64,000 nt of DNA from Ascochyta rabiei (lineage: Eukaryota > Ascomycota > Dothideomycetes > Pleosporales > Didymellaceae), in assembly GCF_004011695.2 (NCBI RefSeq), contig NC_082407.1, positions 434,001 to 498,000 on the forward strand, in the 5' to 3' direction. A program made the translations under genes and the position numbers. The stretch's first letter is position 1; each line of letters begins with the position of its first letter. Shown piece by piece: positions 19,871 through 63,493 of this stretch. Below the pieces are notes generated by a model. The model was not told the origin of the DNA and ran no database searches. It saw only the letters and a list, made by a program, of their open reading frames with translations.

Positions 19871-20082
19871 AAGTTACTAGCAAAATTTAAATAGTATATC
19901 TTTTTTATAAGTATTTAATTACTACTACACTATAAGATCCTGTAATAATAGCTATTATAGGTGGTTGTACAACCTTATCTATTTTTAAGCGTTAAGGTGG
20001 TTTCTAGGCGTTGCGCAACTCTGGGCGTTGCGCGCACAGACACGGTAGGTTTTGCTCGCAGCGTTTTCGTTGTTGTGCGTTA

Positions 20083-20113
20083 CAAAGAAGCTCGTTTTTT
20101 TTAAGGAATCAAG
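20083..20113 (+). repeat. Left TIR of the Tc1/mariner element
   Basis: Begins CAAAGAAGCTCG, then eight T, then AAGGAATCAAG. Inverted match to 21741-21771. Confidence 0.88.
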
Positions 20114-20189
20114 TGGCTCGTGCGTAATTGTCCCCTATTAACGCGTGCAACACCTATACTTTGCCCATAGTAAAACAACTACAACAATG

Positions 20190-21640
20190 CCTACACAGTC
20201 TATTGCGTGTTATAAAAACTTTAAGTATAAGAAGAATAAGCTTATCTAACCTTCTAAAACAAATTATACTAAGATAAGCGCAGTTAAGCACGCGTTTGCT
20301 GTTAGCGCTCTTACAGCAATGTAAGGAGACTACCCTACCTAACGTAATCTAGCAACAACAATAGGACAATAACAAGGCAGTCTATTAAAGCTTCTACGTT
20401 AGATAGAGATAAAGGCAAACAATTATACTAGAGCTCTCTAGGACAAGATACTCTATAAGAACAACCTAGGTTGTAGTTAGAGTACGTTGTTAACGCGTAA
20501 GCAAAAGGACGTAATTATCTATATTACTACATCCTTACAAGAGGCACGCGAACAAGAAAGCTAGCAGGCTATTAGTAATAGCAATTTTAAAGACGTTGCA
20601 CTAGAAATTAGCAGGACAATATTTAAAAATATTATGTATAAGGCTAGATACGCTTATTATTAACCTAGCTAGAAACTATCTCTCACAATTTAACAAGAGG
20701 AGGAGCGTTACTAATAGGCTCTTGCTTACAACCCTAATAAAGATAAAGAGTATAATAACAAGGGCTTTAACTTTATAACAGTAGTGTTCTTAGATAAGAC
20801 ACCTGCTTAAATTAGTAAAGAGAGAGGCATAATACAAACATAGTGTTATAAAGGAGAGAGATAGAATAACAACGTTAAACACAATCGCAACAGGAAGGAT
20901 TGCTACCTACAATTCTATGCCTGCTTTTGTTATAACTATAAAGGCCCTTGTCACGTTTATTACAAGGAGACAGAGAAGGAAAAGGCAGCTACGCAGAAGC
21001 ACATTGTAGAGTTAAACTAGGATTAAGAAACCTATAATAATAAACTCTAAATCTATGCCTGCTACACCCTACACAACATTAATAAGAGTAATATTAATTA
21101 CTAATACAATACCTAGAAGAAGTAGTATATACTAAGTTAGATGGATTACAAACGTAGAGACTGTAGGCGTAGAGGCGTTAATGGTTATTAACACTAAGAA
21201 GGTGCTCTAAAAAAGGTTATCCTATAGATTAAATTGCTAGAGGAGAAAGGTATTAAGTGTATACTATAACAGGATAGTGCTCCTACACATAAGGCACAAA
21301 TTTTACACAATCTACTAATTGTTAAGCATATTAATAGGTTGTGGTAGCTAGGTTACTCTCCTAAGGTTAATGCAATTAAGCACGCATAGCTATAGATTTA
21401 ACGCCACATAACAAAGCAATTCACTCCTTCTTACAACGCCAAACAGTGCCAGAGTTAGTAGATTAGTTAATAGGAGGATATGCCTATAGAGGTTATTAAT
21501 TGTTAGGTAGAGGCAATCCTAGAACAGGTGCAGAGGGTTATAAGATTGCGTAGGAAAAACGACTTCTATAGGTAACTTAGCAACGTTAAAACACTATAAA
21601 AAGCTTAGGATACGTTAATTAGATACTGCGCAATAGCCTT
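20190..21640 (+). pseudogene. Tc1/mariner transposase relic
   Basis: An ATG context lies at 20188 (MPTQSI). Downstream frames are broken by RIP. The catalytic region is clear: YKRRDCRRRGVNGY near 21150, QDSAPTHKAQI from about 21270 (second Asp, family form QDGAPxH), and *LGYSPKVNAIKHA* at 21345-21392 (family form WPxxSPDLNxIExxW). Here the third acidic position reads Lys, a G-to-A change. Length fits one transposase of 400-500 residues. Confidence 0.8.
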
Positions 21641-21740
21641 ATATTGTTAAAATACTAATAAATGTTATAAATTTGTAATTTTGGTGGTGTTTAGTATAGG
21701 GAGTGTGAACGACTTTCATTTTCGCGGCCCGTGCGCAGCG

Positions 21741-21771
21741 CTTGATTCCTCAAAAAAAACGAGCTTCTTCG
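21741..21771 (-). repeat. Right TIR of the Tc1/mariner element
   Basis: Reverse complement begins CGAAGAAGCTCG, then eight T, then GAGGAATCAAG. It keeps the G residues lost in the left copy. Confidence 0.88.
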
Positions 21772-22973
21772 TACCTAGTACGAAGATCTACGTGTCAACC
21801 GCGCATGTTCCCACATGCTCCCTTGCACAAACCTCTCAGTAGAGATGCGACACTGGAGGATCTTATCCAGTTCAACCGCCTCAACCTCCTGGATGTGGTG
21901 AACGTTGATGCTATAGGTACGTTTAGTGGAGAGCTACTATGCTACATATATCTGTAGAGCATCTTGATGTATACGAAAAGTCTCAGGCGTTTCTTATGAA
22001 GTTCTGCCACCTGCACCATGTCACCTTTGCGTGAATCCACTATCAGGACAGCTTCATTGTGAAGAGAGCTGTGAATACTTTGTGTGAAGCTGAATTCCAC
22101 TGCTGCGTCGTATCGCCGTTTCAGCTGTAGGTAGCAATGGAGCGTTCGAGTGAATGATGCTACCGAACGCCCGTGTTGTTTGCGAGCTTGTTGTGGTATC
22201 CAGCCCCCCTCTGTCTGACTGTGCTGATAGGATTGCTAAGGCAGACAGACATACTGCCATGTTTGACTTAATGCAGGTCTGCTTGGTATCGATGTTGACA
22301 AGGACAGTTTGGCCATGACGCGCATTCATGAACCAAGGCATCGACAGTCCTCCGTGCTGAGAATGCGAAGTTTTCGCTTGTGAGCAGGGAAGCACGAGAA
22401 GTAGCGCCTGTTGTGAGAGGATATGTGATGGCAGGTTTGGCCGAGGTCAGGAACTGCAATCGAAGGCGTAGGAGGGCGACGGAGTTCCTAAACCAGAAGC
22501 TATCGCCGCGGTTGCTTGTGAGGTTAAAGAGCAGCACCAGGCAAGAGACTCAGGCCTGTGACTCGCAACGCTAATTCGAGGTAGATGGTCTCTAAGAGGA
22601 ATTTGGAGTATTGGATCTACTTCGGGCGCGCCTCCATAACAAGAGATGGATGAGGCAGTCGCCAGTGCCGGCGGCAGTTGCGAATGGAGTGGCGACCTCA
22701 CAATATAACCAGTCGCTCCACACACATGACCGATTTCGGGAAAGATGAGCATCAGAATCGCGTTGCATATCCAGGTGACCAGGTCGAGTTCGACGCCCGG
22801 TCGTGGAGGTCCTCGGTCAAGCTCAGCTGAACTTATCCCTATCTGCGACTAGCTCACGCGTACCGGTAAGGTAGGTTAGGGCAGATACAATTGCGATTCT
22901 GCAGAGTTGAATTCCTCCGTTGGTGGATTTGGTCCGAGGCTCACGAGCTTTCCATGGGTGTGTGGACTTTGCA

Positions 22974-23093
22974 CTGTATATTTTGCACTGTGCACTTTGC
23001 ATTGTGCACTTTGCACTGTCTACTTTGCACTGTCCACTTTGCACTGTCCACTTTGCACTGTCTGCTTTGCACTGTCCACTGTGCACTTTGCAG
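22974..23093 (+). repeat. 14-bp minisatellite, about 8.5 copies
   Basis: Unit ACTTTGCACTGTCC, repeated at a constant 14-bp spacing with substitutions at the last three positions. Because 14 is not a multiple of 3, all three frames read Leu/Cys/His-rich peptides (HFALCTLHC), which explains the overlapping ORFs here. Confidence 0.9.
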
Positions 23094-24399
23094 CCGGGCG
23101 CGGGACCGCCTTCCTTCCGGGCTGCCCCCGGCGCTGGTAGCGACGACACGCTGAGCCTCATTCGCACAACGAGCACCCGCACGGTTGGACGGTCACCGGT
23201 AGTCCGAGAGTCTTGGCGCCTGCGCTCTCTCTCTCTCTTGCGCGACCTTGTTCGGAACCGTCGGGGCCGAGGGGGTGACGAGCTTCCCGCCTGGTGCATC
23301 CTCATCTCATTCTCTGCATGCAACCGTCAACGGCTGCTCAGGCCTCCTGTCCGCAGCGACGACGTCTTAAGTGTTGACGCTTGACCTTTAACGGCGCATT
23401 CGTTTGATGGCGCATTCGCAGCTTGCCCAAGCCAGGCCAAGGCCCGCGAAGAGGTCATCCATCCTCCACTTGGCCAGCACCACAATGGCGAGGCTGCCAG
23501 GCTGCCTCTGGAGTCTGCACCCTGCAGCAGCACCGTCGACCGCGAATCATCATCCCCTGCACCAACCACAATGGCACCGAGCGCACGTGACGAGGCCTGC
23601 TCCACAACAGTGCGAGAAGAGATAGGTACTCCACAACCTGCGACAGAACTAGTTTCCCCACGTGTCACGTCGACCTTGACGCCTTAACGCCGCTCTCATC
23701 AAGCATGTCGAAGCGGAACTAAAGGACATCTGTCTCTACCATTCGACCCCGCCTCGATCTATAAGAATGTCTGCTTGGCCAGTTCACGAGTCTGTTGTCC
23801 TTGTTTATACGCTAGAGCGCACTTAAGTGTCCGGCAAGATTGGGCTCATCTGCCGCTTAAAGACTAGTCAGGGCTTTGTCATGCTGCATACGCAAGTCAG
23901 AAGTCTAACTTAATGCGTACGCCTGAGTCTTGTATATCCAACATTATCATGCACACGTGGTCGACCCTAGTTCACACGAGGTAGATTGGCCTGGTTTTGG
24001 CAGATCGATCGGCAGGACGTGTCCAAACTCCAGTCTCCCGGTGAGATATCTGGAATGCCAAGAATCGGGCGATCTGGAGGGAGCTTCTGCGACAGATTGA
24101 CAAAAGAGTGCACTAAACGCGTGGCATCCCAGCTCTATGTCACAATTCATATCACACCGCACGGCAATGGCGGACGGGAGAGGCAGTCAGATAAGGACGT
24201 TAGGGACTAAAAGAGCCTAGTGAGGGGGCCGCTACCTGCAGCTCTTATCTCAACCTAAGCGCATAGGCTGCATTTGGCTGCGCTTGGCTGCAAAATGCCT
24301 AACACGACTTTCGCTCGTTCATAAGGTATAAGCCTTGCACCCACTGACAACAACATTCACATCCCTGATGGTTCAGTCTCGCAAGTCTGTCTTTCAATG

Positions 24400-24956
24400 G
24401 AGGGGATTAGGTAGTTTACTTTTCCGTGACAGATCACTGTTTCCGTGGCTTACTAAGACGCGCGGCGTAACACTAATAATAATGCCTACTAGACACGCTG
24501 TTCAGCGTTAGTTCAGACAAAAACTTAAAACTTCTCTTAGCAGTTAACTACTAGTTTACAACTAACTAGTTATAAAGTTATAGGGTAAACTAAATTTTTT
24601 GCTACAGTGTATTTTATTACTAGATCTAAAAGATAGAAGACCTACCTAGTTTATAACCCTTTACCTAAATAATAAGCCCTAGTACTACTGCGTAGGTAGC
24701 GCAGCAGGCTTCTAAAGTTAAGGCCTCTGCAACAGAAGTTACCGTCTTAGTTGTTGCAACTGCCAGCAACACTACTACGTCTACCACAAGGTCTACCGTA
24801 CTTTAATAATTAACCTAAACCCCTCTGCTGCAAACCTTATTTTTTGTCTTGTCCGAAGTCCTACCAGAGCTAGTCAGGGGTGAGCAACCCGCCATACCCG
24901 ACCCGGTTGGCTGCCGAAATCTAGTAAGTACGACACAGAAAAGCACCTAATCCCCT
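24400..24956. mobile_element. Candidate small inverted-repeat element
   Basis: Left end GAGGGGATTAGGTAGTTTAC (24400 on) matches the reverse complement of the right end (GAGGGGATTAGGTGCTTTTC, ending 24956). Flanks CAATG (24395-24399) and TAATG (24957-24961) differ by one C/T change and could be a target duplication. The interior 24460-24850 is RIP-like, unlike its surroundings. At 24878 GGGGTGAGCAACCC resembles a fungal hAT terminus, but no inverted partner was found. Confidence 0.4.
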
Positions 24957-25891
24957 CTAATGCAACCAGCCACCTAAGAGCTCAGGACGAAAGGCCCTTT
25001 GCTCTGACCCGGACTTGTATCGTCCTTTTTGAATCCAACGATACACTTGATCCCGACCATTCAGTCTACTGAGGGTACGGTGGTCTGATATCCTCGTGGC
25101 TCCGATCACCCTAATCCTTTGATCGCACGATCTTGGAGTGGACAGAGTAACCGGATTTGTGTACTGAAACTACAGACGCAGGATTCCAGGACGCATTGGA
25201 GCTGAATTATGTAGCTCTTGATCAAAAGATACCGCTCGAATCGCTGGTGAACTGTGCTTGAAAGTGATATTCTCGCTGCAACAAGGGCTTTTGCTTCTGT
25301 TGCCTTTATACCAATTATGAACCTTCAACCTAATCCTTGCGTGTGAATCTACAGCGTCAGCCTTGCTAGCGTTAATCCAGGCCGACTACACGAGTCAGCT
25401 CTCAACGCGTGTCGGGTACCAAGGCACGGTACAGATAACTTGATATGATGCAGGTTGTTGTTCCTGCCGCCTGTTAAGCCGAGCTGTTGCTACCAGCCAA
25501 ATAACTGTCGCCATTTGCGTGATCCGAGTTTCGCATTGACCGTGTTTACCCAGTTTAATCAGATGCACGTCCGACAACTATCGTGGCGAGTCGGTCCGCT
25601 GCCGCCTTTGTGGATACATCTATACATCGGGGAAAATGAGCTAGCGGCTACTGCTAGTTTGCAAATGAATTGTACATCAGAGGACGGCTTCCTTGACCCT
25701 GAGGCCCACTATGCCAGGCGTATACGCCGATTTACTTGCGTCCAACAATTTTCGACTGAAGTTTGATGCACAGGTTACTGTTGCGGTGTAAGAAATACTA
25801 CATATAGTAAGGACGGATAATAAGGTTGAACACATAATCCCAAATACCCCTCACGCATTATCAACAGCATTCACATTAAGACATTACTGCC

Positions 25892-27476
25892 ATGCCGGGA
25901 ATCAGAACCACGCAGATGGAGCGAGAGCCACCGTCTGGAATCTCGGTTCTCACAGTGGGAGCTGGCATTGGAGGGCTCACCTTCGCCATCGAGGCCTACC
26001 GCAAAGGTCATGATGTTCGAATTATTGAACGCTCTCCTGAAGGACAGTACTCAGGTAAATTGATGAACTGTTCGTAGATGTGTGTATGACTTACATTGTC
26101 TGCAGGAGAAATAATCATAATTACTGCGCCAGCTCTTCAAACTCTGAAGAAATGGCCCACATTCATGGATCGCGCTGGAGAGGCCGGGTATTTGCCTGTT
26201 ATTGAGCTGCGTAAATAGGATGGCACACTCATTAACGTGCATTCTCCAGGCGATGCGACTGGAGACACTCCGACATTGAACATCTACCGAAGGAAGTTGC
26301 ATTATCTCCTCTTTACCTACGCTAAAGAGCTCAACATCCCAATCACCTTTAATACACCGGTTCTTAAATACTTTAAGACTCCTGATGTTGGCGGTGTGAT
26401 CCTCGAAAACGGAGAGAAGCTCACAGCGGATGTGGTTGTCGCCGCTGATGGCGTTGGCTCCAAGTCTTGTGCCGTAACCGATGGCAACAAGGACGCCCTA
26501 ATTAGCTCGGGCTTTATCCTATACCGAATTTCCTTCCTAGTCAGCAAGGCTCTCAAAAACCCTATCATTGCTAAGGAGTTTGAAGGCTACCAGGACTGAG
26601 GCTTTATATACATTGGACCTGGTGCCCACGTGCCGGTAAGTTTCCTCTCAAGCTTTCTTTGGCCACTTGCTGACTATTCGGTAGATTAGCAAGGGAGGAG
26701 ACGACCTGTGCTGGCTCTTAACATGCAAGGTAACTGTCTTTTCTAATATCATGTTACACTCGCTGAGCACAACAGGACGAAGATAGCTCATCTATAGAGA
26801 GTTGGTCAAAAGCTACAACGACAGACAGAGCACTTGAGATTGTTAAAGACTGGGACCCGCTAGTGACTGAAGTCATCAAAGCTACGCCCAACAACAGGGT
26901 TCTTGACTGGAAGCTGATGTGGCGTGACCTGCAACCCCAGTGGACTTCCAAGATTGGGCGTGTGGTCCAGCTCGGCGACGCCGCCCATCCCTTCTTGCCC
27001 ACCTCTTTCAGTGGCGGCACGATGGCAATGGAGGATGCCTACTCGCTCGCAGCGTGTCTCTACATTGCTGGGAAGAAAGATGTTCCTCTTGCTATAAAGG
27101 TGCACAACAAGCTTCGGTACGTCAGCTAAATCCTTGTTTCCTCCAGACAACTAAATCTCGCAGGTTCGAGCGCGTTTCATGCGCGCAGAAACTTGGCTAC
27201 AAGAACCGCGAAGTGTTTTACAACACCAATTAGAAAACCCAAAAAGAGGACTTGAAGCCCATTAAGAAGATGGTTGGCGATTGGCTGACGTATTATAACC
27301 CCAAAGAGTACACATACAAGAATTATGAAAAGTGCGCTGAGCATCTGCGTACAGGCGCACCTTTCGAAAACACAAACCTGCCTCCTGGCTACAAGTACAA
27401 GCCTTGGACTGTTAGAGAGCTTCTGGACGCTTCGGAACGTGGAGAGGAGCTGCACGATGAGGGAGACTGGTCATAA
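25892..27476 (+). pseudogene. FAD-dependent monooxygenase (salicylate hydroxylase-like), three in-frame stops
   Basis: Five exons: 25892-26054, 26106-26635, 26685-26729, 26776-27116, 27164-27476. The four introns are 46-51 bp with GT...AG, and all phases join. Spliced length is about 463 codons, normal for single-component flavin hydroxylases. Exon 1 has the FAD-binding VGAGIGG motif (Rossmann fold) followed by an acidic strand end (RIIER). Exon 2 has the DG motif VVVAADGVGSK. Exon 4 has the second FAD motif LGDAAHPFLPTSFSGG. Start chosen by context (GCCATGC) and distance to the Rossmann fold. Premature stops: TAG 26216-26218, TGA 26597-26599, TAG 27231-27233. The first two are where relatives carry Gln and Arg, so CAG-to-TAG and CGA-to-TGA. 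Without them it would hydroxylate an aromatic or related small substrate using NAD(P)H; the substrate cannot be inferred. No other biosynthetic gene is adjacent. Confidence 0.88.
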
Positions 27477-28084
27477 GTGTTCAACCTACACTTATCTACT
27501 AGTCCAGATAGTATATCCAGCTTGTGACGTTGACAATTTCTTCTTCTTTACAATTCCTCTTCTAGAAGTTAGATATACGAGCAAATTTATCAAAAGACTA
27601 TTCTTGATCTATCCGAACTATTCATCTAACTACTGTAACCTGAAAAGCTGCGATATCAGCATAGAGTAAATGGTTCCTGAAAGTTCGTGGCCGCGGGTGC
27701 GCTGCAGTGGCTTCATAACCTATCCAACAGCTTCTCCACGTGTGAGCATCTTAGGCTTAGGGCGAAAGACCACTTCCAGATGATTCTCGATACTACCAAG
27801 CTCTCCCTGCGCTTTTGTATCCTCTTTAGCTTCTCGCTCTCCATCGCTGGGTCCAGCTTCGAATGCGCCCCTGTAACCTCTCAGGCGCATATCTTGAGCG
27901 AATTTGATAAAAAGCTGTTGAATGAGTTGCTGCTCAGAATCAACGGATTTTCTCAAATAAATCAACGGCAGTGTCAATGTTGATTAGTCAGAAAAACGGC
28001 GCTTCGTAATGGCCCACGATAGCAGACTTGAGGATATTATTAACACGCATGCTAACCTATATCGGGGCCGTGCGTTGCTTGTAT
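27477..28084. other. 3' flank of the monooxygenase; weak minus-strand ORF
   Basis: Un-RIPped sequence. An 85-codon minus-strand ORF (27720-27977) reads plausibly (DSEQQLIQQLFIKFAQDM, then IENHLEVVFRPKPKM) but matches no family I know and has no visible splice partners. It may be a gene fragment. RIP-type composition resumes at about 28085. Confidence 0.35.
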
Positions 28085-56895: not shown

Positions 56896-57170
56896 GACAG
56901 TGCTACGCTGGCAAATGGGTTGGGGTTGGGTCGGGGTTGGGTCGCGTTACGTGACAACCCCTACCCAACCCCAACCCTAACCCGCGCTAACGCCTGCTAA
57001 GAGGGTTAGGGTTAGGTAGAGGTTGTACAGACTAGGGGTTAGGTAGGGGTTCAACACGTTACACGACCTAACCCTAACCTAACCCTAGTATTTAAGTGTC
57101 TTTACTGCTGCTTTATATTTAGCTTTAGCTAGAAACAGGGATGTAGCTCTTTACTTCTAGAACTAAAGCA

Positions 57171-57286
57171 GTAGTTAGTTATTACATTCTATTATTATAC
57201 AGCTACACTAGCTAGCTACAGCAAAGTAGCTACAGCAGACGCTTAGTGCTGCTTATAAAAAGTAGGATAGCATTAGAACTAAAGTT
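57171..57286 (+). repeat. 116-bp direct repeat, left copy
   Basis: GTAGTTAGTTATTACATTCT and the following bases match 59229-59344 over exactly 116 bp without gaps. The right copy is part of the accessory ORF, so this is a displaced fragment of it. Confidence 0.85.
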
Positions 57287-57377
57287 GCAGTTTATTACAG
57301 CTTGTTATTACAGAGAAGGGCGTATTTTAGGTTATTTATTAAATTTCTCTGCTACTTCTCTTAGAGTAAACTACAAA

Positions 57378-57925
57378 CTATATGCTATAATAACCATACT
57401 TACAAAGATAGTAAGTAGCTAATTTAGAGTCCTTTGCCTAAATAGTTACCCTCTTTATATAAATAGCATTTAGGTTACAGTCTACAGTTGTTAGTAAATT
57501 TTGTAAAATAACAATAGGTATATACCTTTAAAGTAACTAATTAGAAAAGCCTCTGCAGACTCTTAGATAGCATCTAGAGCTAAAGACTAGAAGCGCATGC
57601 TAGCCTTGTAATCTAGAGTAATCTTACAAACAAGGTAAGAGAAGGGCAGCTTACGCAGCAAGAGGTTAGTAGTCTTCTAAAGATTCTAAATCTCTCTAAG
57701 CGCAACTGCTAGGTACTGTTAGGAGGTTTCTGTAATAAAGAACTGTAATAACATACTACCAGCCTTATAGCGCCTCTTCTTCTTAACAGGCACTCTCTTC
57801 CTACCAGGCACTAACTTCTTACTAGGCCGCTGAGCTGCTTTTACACTAAGGTTTTTTTTAGAAGCCTTACCGCTAGTTGCAGCTAGCAGGCTCTTCCTAA
57901 CTCTAGATTTTCTAGACCTGGCTAT
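57378..57925 (-). pseudogene. Histone H3-family gene relic (H3 or CenH3-like) inside the hAT element
   Basis: Three exons on the minus strand: 57925-57757, 57708-57526, 57481-57378. Intron 1 (57756-57709, GTATGT...CTAAC...TAG, 48 bp) and intron 2 (57525-57482, GTATAT...CTAAC...TAG, 44 bp) splice to the exact H3 frame, about 151 codons. The tail is Lys/Arg-rich (ARSRKSRVRKS, SGKASKKNLSVKAAQR, KKKRRYKAG). The junction gives GTVALREI as in H3. Then NL*KTTNLLLRKLPFSYLV (alpha-N and alpha-1), DYKASMRF*S, and AI*ESAEAFLISYFK (alpha-2), then across intron 2 DCNLNAIYIKRVTI*AKD (alpha-3). The start codon now reads ATA. All four stops before alpha-3 or within it sit where H3 proteins have Arg or Gln, or Met/Gln. 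QES, the Ser in LIS and the stop (not ATA) at the VTI(M/Q) site lean toward fungal CenH3. Canonical H3 variant remains possible. Non-functional as read. Confidence 0.85.
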
Positions 57926-57937
57926 AGGAGCGTAAAG

Positions 57938-58096
57938 CAGTAAGCTTCTGCAAGAGTGTAGTTTAGAGGCAGTAAGCTTTAAAAAGAGTGTAGTTTAGAG
58001 GCAGTAAGCTTTAAAAAGAGTGTAGTTTAAGGCAGTAAGCTTCTAAAAGAGTGTAGTTTTAAAACAGTAAGCTTCTAAAATAGTGTAGTTTAAAAA
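57938..58096 (+). repeat. 32-bp minisatellite upstream of the H3-family relic
   Basis: CAGTAAGCTT starts at 57938, 57970, 58002, 58033 and 58065, each followed by AAAAAGAGTGTAGTTT or a variant. It lies just upstream (minus sense) of the H3-family start codon, in promoter position. Confidence 0.85.
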
Positions 58097-58109
58097 AAGT
58101 GTAGTGTAG

Positions 58110-59062
58110 TAGAGAGGCAGGTTAGATCTGCGGAATAGCAGTTTCGTAGTAGGGCTGTGGGCTGATTGCTTACTTAACAGCCACCTAGCTTCGCACTATA
58201 CTGCACCCTCTAAACAGTAATAAAAGCCTATAATAATTCTACTACCTGCAGAACTATATAGGCACTTTCTAATAAACTAATTTTTATCTATATACAGCTA
58301 TTATGAAACGTTCTAGTTGTAACTACAGCTTATATCTAATTTGTTAGAGTGCAGGGCATGTGTATAAGCTGTTTCGCACTGTTTTATAAGCTAGAAATAC
58401 CCTGCGCCTACCTAGATAGTTAGGAATATAATAATAAACTATAATAATTAATCCTCTAGTTTAACTTTGTACGCGCTTTTAGATAATGCTAAAATTAGCT
58501 TGTTGCTAGATCTAGGAAAAAAGTTAGCATAGCTTTAAGTTTAGGCTATTGTAAGAGCGCTAGTGCTGTTTGTTTAGTAGAGCGCACAGACTAGCTTGCA
58601 TAAATAACTTTCTACAGTATATAGAATATCTACTCTAGTACCTACCACAACCACTATACTATACTAAACCTCTCTATTTTCTACTCTACTTCTCTACTAC
58701 TTTGCTATATAAGCAATTCCTGCTCTATATTACTACTACTGCCCTAAAATAACAACTCTAACGCAAAAGGATATAAAACAAGAGGATTCTAACCTTAGCT
58801 TTAGCAATAAGCTCTATATTCTGCCTAACTTTAAGGCTAATAAGTGGAATGCTCTTGTTAACGTAGTTATTACAGCCTAATATTACAGACATTGCTAACT
58901 GTTGCTTAGGGCTTTTAAACTTAAGAGGATAAAGTTAACTACATCCTATCTCTGCGCAGTTAGAGTAGTTTAAAGAAAGGACAACTAACCTACTTTAAGA
59001 TTCCTTATAAAGGCAGTCTTAGTACAAATACCTAGGCTATTAAGCAGAGGAGCTAGGCTACA
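58110..59062. other. hAT internal region without assigned gene
   Basis: 58110-58780 shows no coherent frame. A plus-strand frame at 58795-59110 reads SNKLYILPNFKANKWNALVN and later FLIKAVLVQIPRLLSRGA between RIP stops. It may belong to the accessory ORF upstream of an intron or frameshift. Not recognised. Confidence 0.3.
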
Positions 59063-59761
59063 ATGCGCAGTAACGAGGGGAGGGCCTGTAAAGCTGCTGG
59101 TGCAGCTAACTAAGCAGCAAAGTACTAGCTTATAAGAAAGCTAAAGAAGGGGGGTGCTACTGCTACTACTAAAGTAGTAGCTTAGTCTCTTAAAGCCCTT
59201 ACGGCTACTTGCTTTTAGGACTGCAGTAGTAGTTAGTTATTACATTCTATTATTATAGAGCTATACTAACAGAGTGCAGCTAAGTAGCTAGAGTAGATGC
59301 TTAGTGCTGCTTATAAGAAGTAGGATAGCATTAAAACTAAAGTTAATATACGAAAGTATAATGCATTAGTTAGTAAGCTAAAGGAAACTACAACAAAGCC
59401 CTAGCAAGCTGCTGCTCCTTTCTATAGAACCTGATCTAGAGAACAACTCTTTAGCTCTAGTGGCGCCTATTAGAACATCCTGTGTAGAGAGTATTAGTAA
59501 GGTCTTTAGAAGCTAAAGACTAACAGCTTTAAGGACAAAGCTGCTAAGGAGGAGTAGGAGGCATTCCGCGATAGCCTGTCTGCTGCAGACCTAGTAGTTG
59601 CCTTAGACAATACCTAGTAGTAGGTTATTATTATAATATATCATAAGCAGTTACTAACTATACTTTCCTAGAAAACAAGAGCTACCTTCTATAGTAGAGG
59701 CCTTTAGCGGCAACTAAGACCTGCTACTCTACAGTAACAAGCTATATATAGAGGGAGATAA
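59063..59761 (+). pseudogene. Accessory ORF of the hAT element, 232 codons
   Basis: ATG at 59063, one frame to TAA at 59759 with no indel. Interruptions are TAG, TAA and one TGA, all readable as RIP of Gln, Trp or Arg codons. Visible parts: MRSNEGRACKAAGAAN, LIRKLKKGGATATTKVVA, LSAAYKK*DSIKTKVNIRKY, GL*KLKTNSFKDKAAKEE and FRDSLSAADLVVALDNT. Ala/Lys/Gln-rich and probably helical. In another frame (about 59708-59975) follows YKEEVNNNSKRELEDYFKTR and an Asn-rich stretch, perhaps the next exon. Function unknown; it precedes the transposase on the same strand. Confidence 0.5.
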
Positions 59762-60549
59762 TAGTAATAAGTATAAGGAGGAGGTTAATAATAACTCTAA
59801 GAGAGAGCTAGAGGACTATTTTAAAACTAGGCCAGATAAGTATAAGACTGATAAGCAGTATTTTTAGGCTCTAGCAGAAGAGAAGGAGGCAAAGACTGAC
59901 TTTAAGGGGTTCTTAGATAATAATAATAACGCTAGCAGCGTTAATAATAATAAGGAAATAGCTAAGGCAGACTAGTATATACAGCTAAGTTGTTAGCATA
60001 TAGAGCTAAGTAGTTAGTGTTTAATTTTAGCTAATTATTACATATAAAGCATAAAACTAAGGGTTTAGTAGTAGTTAGTTTAAAACTAAGAAAGTTTAGC
60101 TAAATTATAATAATTTATTTTAGCTAATTATTACATACACCTGCGTTCTAGTAACCCCTAGCTAAATACAGCTAAATTTCAAAATAGTAGAGCTAAGAAA
60201 CTAGTTCTATTAATTGCGTCAGACTTGCTGTCTGCTCTCTGCTTACTGCTCTCTGCACTCTACACCTACTGTTTGCCTTATTTGCCTCTATATTTTCTTA
60301 CCTAGAAGACTCTACAATGCCTTAATATTCTATTTTTTACCTTGCTACAGGCACTAAGCAGTTTATTACTGTGTTTTATTATAGTTATATCCTCTTTACC
60401 TAGCACGCCGTCTTTAGCGTCTTCCCTACCCCCTTCTTTCCTACTAGAACTACCTAACGCCCTTAAAAAATTCAGGCTCTTAGCTCTAAGGACTAGAAAA
60501 GGAGGCATACAAACAGTAGTTTCCTTAGTTACACAGCTACAACTTAACA

Positions 60550-63036
60550 GTGCTAAAGACTAGGATAGCAAAGAAACCCTTGCTTTATAGGACAACTAGT
60601 AGAGTAAAACTAATTAGGGTCAGCATCCTGCAACTAATAAGCCTTAATAGAACTCTATTACACGCACTAGCTATATCTAGACACTATTCTAAGAGGCCTT
60701 ATACGCTTATAATGGCCACCTACACATATACTACCTTAATTACAGCCTAGTACTACAACATCTAGCTATAAAAGGAATTAGAACTAAACACCTTACTAAT
60801 TATTTAAAGTCTTAATTATGTGTTTAGATTAAGACTCCTGTATATAGCCAGCAACGTAGAGCTAACTACGCTAAACTTCAGCGTTAACAGCAATAAAGAC
60901 AGGATCCTACTTAAGAAATAGCCTACTTAGTACCAGCTTTTAAGAAAGAGCTAGTGCGGCTAGTAATTGACAATAACTGGTCTTTCTAGACAGTAGAGCG
61001 ACCATCCTTTTAACGCTTTATCTGCTTTCTTTAACTAAATACTGTAATAACTAGCCGTTATAAATTTAGCTAGATGTTTCAGAGCTAGTTTAAGACTGCT
61101 ACGTCTTTCCTTCTTAGTAACCTTAGCAAAAACGTTAAGGTATCTATTGCGTTTAATGCCTAGACTGCTAGCAACTATCTAAGCTTCTTAGCTGTAAAAG
61201 GTTACTATATCAACAACAAGTAGAAACTAAGAGAAGTGCTACTTAATTTTATTCTACTACGTAGTAAACATTTAGGGGCTTCTATAGCAAGAGAAGTACT
61301 ATAGGTCTTAAAAGCTTCTAGCATTATAAAGAAGCTACTAGCTATTACCTGTAACAATGCCAGCAACAACAACACCTTATTACATTTGCTAGCAGCAGGA
61401 CTTAGGGCAGAGGGATATACCTAGAGCTCTAAAGAGAATATAATTCCCTACCTTGCCTACGTTATTAACCTTGTAGTACAGGACATTATCTACTATCTAA
61501 AGCTATTACCTTCTATTAAGCTAGAACATAGGCAGGTATTACAGCAACACTATATTAATAAGATTAAAACTCTTATATCTGTCCTAAACTCTCTCTGCAA
61601 GGTATAGGTACAATTATCACATGCCTTTATTACATACTAAGTAGACCCTAGATTTAAACTATCTGTATTAGTATTAATATATTACTATAACGTTTTAAAC
61701 AATTTATTGCAACTTAGGTTAATCTACTACCTAATCAGCGTCTAAGGGTAATATAGGATGTTAAGACTTGTTAGAACTCTACTTATAATATGTGTAAGAG
61801 AGCTCTTAAGCTCTAAACATATATTAATAAGTGGCTAGAACAGGAGATAGCACTAAAGACAACTAGCCATTCTGCTACTAGTTCTGACAATAGCTCTACT
61901 ACAGAAGCAGATTAGAAGGATCTTAAGAAACTCTGCCTAACTATTCTAGAGTAGTTGCATCTTAAGGCAATTACTGCTATGCTAGAGAAGTTTAAGACTG
62001 CTACTAACTTCCTAAGTAAGAATAGAAAACCTTAGATCTTATATATATAGCTTATGTATAATTAGTTGTTTAATTTCCTAGATTAAATAACTAAAGAGCT
62101 AGGTAACGACTTAAGTAACACTAATTACGCTAGATAGCCTAATGTTGTTAAGGCTGCAGCTAAGAAGGGTTACACAAAACTATCTAAGTACTACTTAAGG
62201 ACTAGGCAAGAAAGAGGGTACTTATTTAATTGTGTAACTATCTTAGATCTAACTTAAAAGCTTACAGTTCATAAGGTATAGTTATTATAAATATTTATTA
62301 CAGTAAGCTACTAACAGTATCCTAGGATAATACATAGGACTTCTAAGACAAGCACATATATTAAGAGCAATTCCTAGATTATCTTAATTACTACGATAGT
62401 AGACGCCCCTTAGGTGTCTCTTTCTCTTCTAATAACCTTTAAAGGCATATGCTGGATAATAACTAGTTTTATAAACCTTAAGATTTACTGTTACATAGCT
62501 TCTCTACCCTAAGTTAAGCCTTAATTACACTTAGGACTAACAACAACGCTAGCCTAACACGTTAAGAGGGGGAGTCTTACCTAAGCACACCTTATATTTA
62601 ACAGAGGAAGGGCTTTAGTGTACTGTAGTAGTGGCAGAAAAACTGTACTTCCTTCCCTTAGCTTGCCTGTATTACTATAGATATCCTAGTAATACTAATC
62701 GCACAAGTAGGAGTTAAGCGCGTTTTTAACACCTCTAGGGACGTTATTAGAGACTAAAGGCATAGGCTCTTAGCCTAGTTAATTTAAAAGATTATAATCC
62801 TTAAAGACACAATCTTAGAGCCTAAGTAAGAAGACAGTGACGTTTTGCTAGAGGACAAGGTAGATACTCTACTTAAGCTACTAGTCTGTGTTAAGCCAGT
62901 AGATAGGCAGGGCAGTAATACTAAAGTTAATAGTAAAGAGGAAGAGGAAGAGGATAAGGTCCTAGTTACTCCTTTGCGACAGGAGCAGCGGCCACAAAAA
63001 AGAGCAAGACCCTGGCAGTATTGCAATAATACGTGA
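60550..63036 (+). pseudogene. hAT transposase relic
   Basis: Coherent plus-strand coding through RIP stops. RLVIDNNWSFQTVERPSF near 60950-61010 is the hAT segment before the first catalytic Asp. SIAFNAQTASNYLSFLAVKG near 61142-61205 is the D-W-T region, where Asp now reads Asn and Trp a stop. LLAITCNNASNNNTLLHLL near 61330-61390 holds the second conserved TDNASNN motif. YLAYVINLVVQDI near 61450 is the C/W-H-x2-NL type region. The C-terminal dimerisation part QVGVKRVFNTSRDVIRDXRH lies at about 62705-62765. The open C-terminal end with an Asp/Glu-rich and basic tail runs to TGA 63034-63036. Start not determinable; a BED finger was not resolved. Confidence 0.85.
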
Positions 63037-63110
63037 TAAATAGCTGTAATAAATAGCTGTAATAATAATAGGCCTGCTTTTTACTATAATTACATCCTAC
63101 AATGTAATAA

Positions 63111-63274
63111 ACGTGTTACCTAAATATATTTAAAGAAGATGTAGATTAAGTTAATATTAAAATATACGCTCTTATCTATTATAGTATAGTAGACGTGTTC
63201 CCTAAATATATTTAAAGAAGATGTAGATTAAGTTAATGTTAAAATATACGCTGTTATCTATTATAGTATAGTAG
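63111..63274 (+). repeat. 82-bp tandem duplication near the hAT right end
   Basis: ACGTGTTACCTAAATATATT (63111) is repeated as ACGTGTTCCCTAAATATATT (63193). Two units of 82 bp with three or four differences, between the transposase stop and the G/C-rich terminus. Confidence 0.85.
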
Positions 63275-63493
63275 GGTACCCCTAACCTAACCTAAGCCTA
63301 GGCAGACCTAACTCTAACCCACGCTAGTGCTACCCTAACCTAACCCCTACCCGCACTAGGGCAACCCCTACCCAACCACAGCCCCTAGTCCGTGCGACCT
63401 AAACCTAACCACGACCCCTGGTCTATGCGACCCTAACCTAACCCCGACCTCTATGTAGGGTACCCCGAACCTATTTGCCAGCGTAGACAGTGC

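Follow-up and report, generated by a model that had tools for sequence, protein, structure and literature searches.

A gene resembling histone H3 lies inside a hAT transposon of the fungus Ascochyta rabiei, which raises the question of whether the element has recently picked up a copy of a host gene or whether the gene belongs to the transposon lineage itself. The locus is part of a stretch of 64,000 nucleotides, referred to here as the window, that corresponds to positions 434001-498000 of contig 3; the assembly searched comprises 40.9 Mb in 23 contigs.

The hAT element and its H3-like gene

The element, the reference copy of what we call family A, occupies positions 56904..63485 on the plus strand (6582 bp), as defined by a pair of TIRs, a TSD, and empty sites elsewhere in the genome. 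The left TIR (56904..56925, plus strand) begins with TACGCTGGCAAATGGG, and the right TIR lies at 63464..63485 on the minus strand; the TIR sequence TACGCTGGCAAA has exactly two mismatch-free occurrences within the window, at 56904-56915 (plus) and 63474-63485 (minus). The 8-bp TSD, GACAGTGC, is identical on both sides of the element (56896..56903 and 63486..63493). The transposase gene, broken by stops, is located at 60450..63033 on the plus strand, and its C-terminal frame, with stops masked, matches the hAT dimerisation domain (Dimer_Tnp_hAT, PF05699; E 3.4e-10, 40 bits against a cut-off of 21.4). The features of the hAT superfamily, namely an 8-bp TSD, short TIRs, and a transposase with a C-terminal hAT dimerisation region, are all present. 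A search of six masked pieces of the transposase and the central ORF gave no other Pfam match above the cut-off. In tblastn comparisons, the transposase matches are separated by a gap of about 47 bp (61605-61651) that resembles a small intron.

Upstream of the transposase on the same strand is the remnant of a central ORF (58976..59912), homologous to the N-terminal part of a central-ORF/hAT fusion protein of Pyrenophora tritici-repentis (Ptr) and also present in a second family of the same genome, family B. Through an internal duplication of 141 bp (57146-57286 and 59204-59344, 84% identical), part of the central-ORF region is present a second time, directly downstream of the H3-like gene. 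Immediately upstream of that gene, about five imperfect 32-bp tandem repeats (57933-58108) could be regulatory repeats or hAT subterminal repeats.

The sequence that flanks the element is itself a multicopy repeat. When the left and right flanks were searched separately against the genome, each list being the best 40 of about 135 candidates, 18 of the 39 left-flank matches elsewhere had an adjacent right-flank match; the two matches overlap by exactly 8 bp in 17 cases and by 5 bp in the remaining one. These 18 places are empty sites without the hAT element. The H3-like gene is therefore not part of the flanking repeat, and we reject that interpretation. An earlier note on this DNA had described a TIR-bounded, TSD-flanked hAT element enclosing an H3 gene, and had named the presence of the H3 segment at repeat copies lacking the element as grounds for abandoning that description. 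The TIR pair and the identical TSD bear the description out, and, since the sites are empty, the gene belongs to the hAT element.

The H3-like gene is read from the minus strand, opposite the transposase, as the note had it. Exon 1 (57757..57925) encodes a Lys/Arg-rich tail, its first codon being ATA; exon 2 (57526..57708) runs from VALREI to YFK and contains four in-frame stops; and exon 3 (57378..57481) runs from KRVTI to the terminal stop and contains one internal stop. Intron 1 (57709..57756, 48 bp) interrupts H3 codon 45 in phase 1 and reads GTATGT...CCTAACAG...TAG, and intron 2 (57482..57525, 44 bp) interrupts H3 codon 106, also in phase 1, and reads GTATAT...ACTAAC...TAG; both begin with GT and end with AG, and a CTAAC-like element precedes the 3' end of each. 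The spliced gene reads ...RRYKAGTVALREI... and ...SYFKDCNLNAIYIKRVTI... across the joins, and consists of 151 codons ahead of the terminal stop, five of which are stops. Exact splicing confirmed that the two introns are genuine and restore the H3 register, as had been proposed.

With stops masked as X, the product matches the core histone profile PF00125 significantly (E 7.1e-14, 52.5 bits against a cut-off of 26.4), the check that had been suggested, and it matches histone H3 chains in PDB at 5e-27; in both queries, the exon joins were marked by X placeholders, and some surplus residues stood beside the first join. For the exactly spliced, placeholder-free sequence, a search of 5.8 billion proteins gave a best E of 2.1e-28, with 1302 proteins matched. 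The encoded fold is that of H3, as is clear from the sequence, and we reject a chance reading on these E-values. The fold had also been called complete. The H3 assignment holds, but completeness does not: the start codon is ATA in place of ATG, and the five internal stops are all TAA or TAG. Because of this start and these stops, the window copy cannot make a protein. The tail lacks the motifs ARTKQTARKS (K4 and K9) and AARKS (K27), and instead reads ARSRKSRVRKSLLAATSGK...KAAQRPSKK; the corresponding tails in family B, Ptr, and Alternaria also deviate from these motifs, each in its own way.

Inactivation and relatives in the same genome

Sequence composition of the RIP type (TpA/ApT greater than 1.9) is found in 14 of the 16 4-kb stretches of the window, the exception being 20-28 kb. 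Positions ~20000-28000 are thus the sole part of the window without such composition, and the segment 19000-29500 contains only two ORFs of at least 130 aa, which overlap each other on opposite strands. The window copy of the element has been destroyed by RIP-type mutation.

Among the 58 matches listed (40 of 120 candidates scored), the window copy is the only full-length member of family A. Five short derivatives that keep the element ends were observed, two on C4 and one each on C3, C20, and C5. Both ends were recognised in two of these five, which are 707 and 740 bp long and each flanked by a perfect 8-bp TSD. The matches of the short derivatives lack the transposase altogether, and of the H3-like gene they cover the final few bases at most.

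Family B is diverged from family A. Its transposase is 65-70% identical to that of the window at the DNA level (37 matches by hand count, among the matches listed), and its H3-like gene is mostly 68-80% identical over short stretches; besides the window, there are at least 24 family-B H3-like places, again by hand count. The layout is the same as in the window, with the H3-like gene on the minus strand, a central region, and the transposase on the plus strand; the central region is about 63% identical over ~690 bp in 5 of the 10 loci searched. Left ends were found in 6 of the 14 H3 loci scanned, the window locus included, and right ends in 13 of the 22 transposase loci. Five of the six left ends pair with a right end having an identical 8-bp TSD and one is without a partner; one of the five TSD-matched pairs is an inverted duplicate of another. 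The two family-B copies C2:1908212-1911421 and C2:1924723-1927932, which lie about 16 kb apart and inverted relative to each other, show 100% identity over 3210 bp, whereas other family-B copies differ by several percent or more; this pair either arose by inverted duplication not long ago or is an artefact of the assembly.

In the 23 family-B copies that could be aligned, both introns are at the sites used in the window gene, with splice sites largely retained (intron 1, GT in 22/23 and AG in 21/23; intron 2, GT in 21/23 and AG in 21/23). Since both introns are common to families A and B, their gain predates the split of the two families.

One could still suppose that an H3 pseudogene and a hAT element merely happen to lie together, or that the resemblance to H3 arose by chance in RIP-altered sequence. 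The region is indeed heavily mutated and no intact copy was found in the genome; against this are the significant profile and sequence matches, the TSD and TIRs that enclose the gene, and the further family-B places, by which this idea is already refuted, and we give it practically no credence.

The search for other copies of the element, which the note had proposed together with the question of whether they carry the same intact gene, thus had a divided outcome: family B carries the same H3 gene with the same introns, but an intact copy was not found. No stop-free H3-like copy of the hAT type was seen in the A. rabiei genome, none of the 23 aligned family-B copies is without stops in the fold, and no live copy of either family was found there. 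The stop-free histone-fold matches in this genome are the host H3, part of CenH3, and four other histone-fold proteins that we read by eye as H2A, H2A.Z-like, H2B, and NF-YC-like. The suggestion that the transposon-borne H3 could affect the chromatin of the element or the host therefore does not apply to these copies, the window gene being broken and all 23 aligned family-B genes having stops in the fold. The changes among family-B copies also have the character of RIP: in 21 H3 copies, the polymorphic columns comprise 99 transitions and 16 non-transitions, and 50 of the 99 transitions are at CpA, as RIP produces.

To look for earlier selection beneath this damage, we counted only transversions between family A and the commonest base of family B; since RIP makes transitions, transversions record change that is free of RIP. 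Over 92 fold codons of H3, there are 17, 10, and 30 transversions at codon positions 1, 2, and 3, respectively (permutation p 0.0001). The introns of the gene show 0.24-0.28 transversions per site versus 0.11 at position 2 (21 B copies). This concentration at third positions resembles the bias in the transposase, where position 2 has values of 0.08-0.09 and position 3 has values of 0.22-0.26 (18 B copies). A transversion-only pN/pS ranges from 0.47 to 0.69 with a mean of 0.54 over 21 B copies. Note that the case for selection is essentially one comparison, A versus B, because the B copies share history and are not independent.

The question of capture

The host H3 gene is located at C1:1630952, beside H4, and is interrupted by one intron near codon 9 and another after KRVTI; the host CenH3 gene (C4:959085-959584) has an intron after KLPFQRLV. 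The intron sites of the window gene, in codons 45 and 106, match neither. Since the sites differ from those of both host genes, the introns do not document a copy of a host gene, and the choice between genomic DNA and mRNA as a source cannot be read from them. The gene is also separate from CenH3 in the tree, and we reject an identification as CenH3 (CENP-A) on intron site and tree position.

The earlier note had taken the introns as a sign of capture from genomic DNA. That conclusion falls, given that the intron sites are not those of host H3 or CenH3 and that the introns are common to family B. In its strongest form, the capture explanation states that the window element took up the host's own H3 from genomic DNA recently and once. 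The same gene, introns, and layout in the sister family contradict it, as do the unshared intron sites, and the protein shares residues with the H3L proteins of Ptr and Alternaria, its identity to the ordinary H3s compared not exceeding 50%. It can appeal to the presence of introns as such, to an AU test that does not reject A, B, and the host H3 as one clade (p 0.121), and to the fact that identity to ordinary H3s is as high as to H3L. The introns common to family B already largely refute it, and we regard it as very improbable.

The closest known relatives are in Pleosporales. Manning et al. (2013, PMC3538342) describe a Ptr hAT element that has TIRs, a transposase with a dimerisation domain, a central ORF, and a gene named H3L, whose product is divergent and reported to be neither H3 nor CenH3. 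That genome shows little RIP and contains 26 nearly identical H3L genes; the long form of the element is ~5.6 kb, and a short form makes a chimera of the central ORF and the transposase. ESTs of H3L are reported, and a figure legend mentions introns in the ESTs.

Ptr proteins match what are read as all three genes of the window element. For the H3-like gene, the top two matches in the 5.8-billion-protein search were Ptr proteins P0001 and P0002, and the next organism-named match was P0004 of Alternaria alternata, although the lead is small in bit score (117 and 116 for Ptr versus 116 to 112 for the next ranks). Plain identity is 46% to the Ptr and Alternaria H3L proteins versus 44-50% to the ordinary H3s aligned. 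The window, Ptr, and Alternaria sequences have in common, as against those ordinary H3s, the residues KKR[RK] before the fold, YF-D-C-N-[LI]-N, and KDS, of which family B has only a part. A profile search with a four-row H3L alignment, which scored the 8000 candidates with the most words in common and listed 120, was dominated by two-domain H3 proteins of ~275 aa; among the 120 listed, the best-ranked proteins shorter than 180 aa were again P0001, P0002, and P0004. The Alternaria protein has 16 member sequences on 9 contigs and is of the H3L type; it occurs in several copies and is thus possibly transposon-borne too.

For the transposase, the best organism-named match was the Ptr hAT protein P0239 (28 member sequences, E 1.8e-132), with an unnamed JGI protein above it. 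Another Ptr protein, P0246, is 94.6% identical to P0239 over residues 316-777, and its residues 46-313 match the central region of the window with 25-34% identity (E 2.3e-12, tblastn). The PDB matches of P0246 are hAT transposases only and cover the C-terminal part only. This structure fits the central-ORF/transposase chimera described for the short form, and from the description in that paper we infer that P0239/P0246 and P0001 come from one Ptr element.

In a tree of H3 proteins, the H3L rows (A, two B, two Ptr, and Alternaria) lie together on one side of a branch whose support is 98/97, or 97/95 without B and 85/89 without A, the window row; the tree has long branches and its bootstrap values are not settled.

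Taken together, the best reading of the sequence comparisons is that the H3 is probably an old, selectively maintained gene of the hAT lineage that has here been destroyed by RIP. The anatomy of the element, the homology, and the shared introns and layout point to an inherited gene that selection maintained for as long as the element was active, and not to a recent passenger. We consider it likely that the window element, now inactivated by RIP, belongs to the H3-carrying hAT lineage of the Ptr "H3L" element, in which H3L was inherited and kept by selection. Such an element would probably be expressed and be moved by its transposase; H3L would be made as a variant H3 and enter nucleosomes, where, we hypothesise, it perhaps helps the element's own or new copies to escape silencing.

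Whether the lineage extends further was addressed by a scan of other collections with the transposase alignment. No relative was found among viral contigs. In a collection of prokaryote genomes, the scan found two contigs from one MAG (VBAU01, isolate BD_5) that carries the label Bacteroidetes and is evidently contaminated with eukaryotic DNA. This MAG has four PF00125 matches on four contigs, all of which also bear hAT transposase; by alignment, the transposase is on seven contigs, and PF05699 is on ten (contig numbers reach at least 581). The four H3-like genes have no stops through the fold and two introns each of 32-43 bp, with splice sites hand-chosen so as to preserve the H3 register. 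In all four contigs, intron 1 interrupts codon 45 at the very base where it does so in the window gene, and intron 2 lies four bases from the site used in A and B. Layouts vary: C450 is arranged as in the window, the H3 is downstream in C153 and C172, and it is on the same strand in C581.

The alternative that has to be weighed here is that hAT elements in different fungi captured H3 repeatedly and carried it passively, the constraint between A and B dating from before the capture. The VBAU01 contigs bear on it in both directions. The shared position of intron 1 in A, B, and all four contigs counts against it; the displaced intron 2 and the varying gene layout count for it, and so does the tree, where the VBAU01 H3s do not join the Pleosporales H3L. 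When these four are included, with their long branches, all carrier H3s form one group in 0% of 200 bootstrap trees. Across seven elements, H3 and transposase distances run parallel (r 0.909, with 7 of 5040 permutations as high), as a jointly inherited gene rather than a repeated capture would have it, although this correlation partly reflects the difference between the two groups of hosts. In Pleosporales, there is a match for each of the three genes. In favour of repeated capture, the paper by Dhillon et al. (2019, PMC6710886) judges the events in Ptr and in Mycosphaerellaceae to be independent, and the H3 in Pseudocercospora fijiensis is intronless. On balance, we consider repeated capture unlikely as an explanation of the window element.

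Since the VBAU01 H3s do not join the Pleosporales H3L, a single ancient origin for the carriers in all hosts is no more than a possibility. A wider possibility, which we put forward tentatively and would rate somewhat below an even chance, is that a hAT lineage has kept its own selected H3 variant from a time before distant fungal lineages separated, following a single ancient capture, and that the protein would be made for the benefit of the element, for example to give new copies nucleosomes without the usual silencing marks. The published "transduplications" would then be late offshoots.

Comparison with known systems

The earlier note had considered histone genes as transposon cargo to be highly unusual. 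However, H3-carrying hATs were published in 2013 (PMC3538342) and 2019 (PMC6710886), which, of the open-licence papers listed by literature searches, appear from their titles and abstracts to be the only ones on H3 in hAT elements. The window element is a dead member of this published kind of element. What appears to be new is a second family with the same layout, the same intron sites, and a third-position bias in transversions, together with intron sites that differ from those of the host H3 and CenH3 and the four H3-like genes on hAT contigs of VBAU01, in which the site of intron 1 recurs.

Like the window element, the Ptr H3L hAT has TIRs and three genes, those of the transposase, the central ORF, and the divergent H3. 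In contrast to its numerous, near-identical ~5.6-kb copies in a genome with little RIP, the window element is 6.58 kb long, single, and destroyed by RIP.

The second published case (PMC6710886) is an H3-carrying hAT with an 8-bp TSD in P. fijiensis and five other Mycosphaerellaceae. Their extra H3 copies are all RIP-inactivated, those of P. fijiensis being in AT-rich blocks; the elements of P. fijiensis are ~9.5 kb long and carry one or two H3 copies, and their intronless H3 is interpreted as derived from a transcript or retrocopy. That study saw no similarity to the Ptr element at the nucleotide level. The window element is similar in its 8-bp TSD, in the H3-like gene inside, and in its inactivation by RIP, but differs in having two introns in its H3 and in being shorter than the ~9.5 kb of P. 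fijiensis.

Both papers treat H3 in hATs as gene capture, independent in different fungi. Our comparison suggests that the H3 looks long-held by the lineage and is not a recent accident. If H3 is an old, selected transposon gene, then some DNA transposons carry their own chromatin protein, and help against silencing or RIP becomes testable. Open-frame copies, in Pyrenophora according to the published description and in the VBAU01 contigs, make the idea of a chromatin protein accessible to experiment.

The plant Pack-type elements (Pack-MULEs and the like), products of transduplication, resemble the window element in that a DNA transposon contains sequence of a host-derived gene between its ends. 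Pack-type elements carry recent and varied gene fragments. Here, in contrast, diverged hAT families repeatedly contain the same histone gene.
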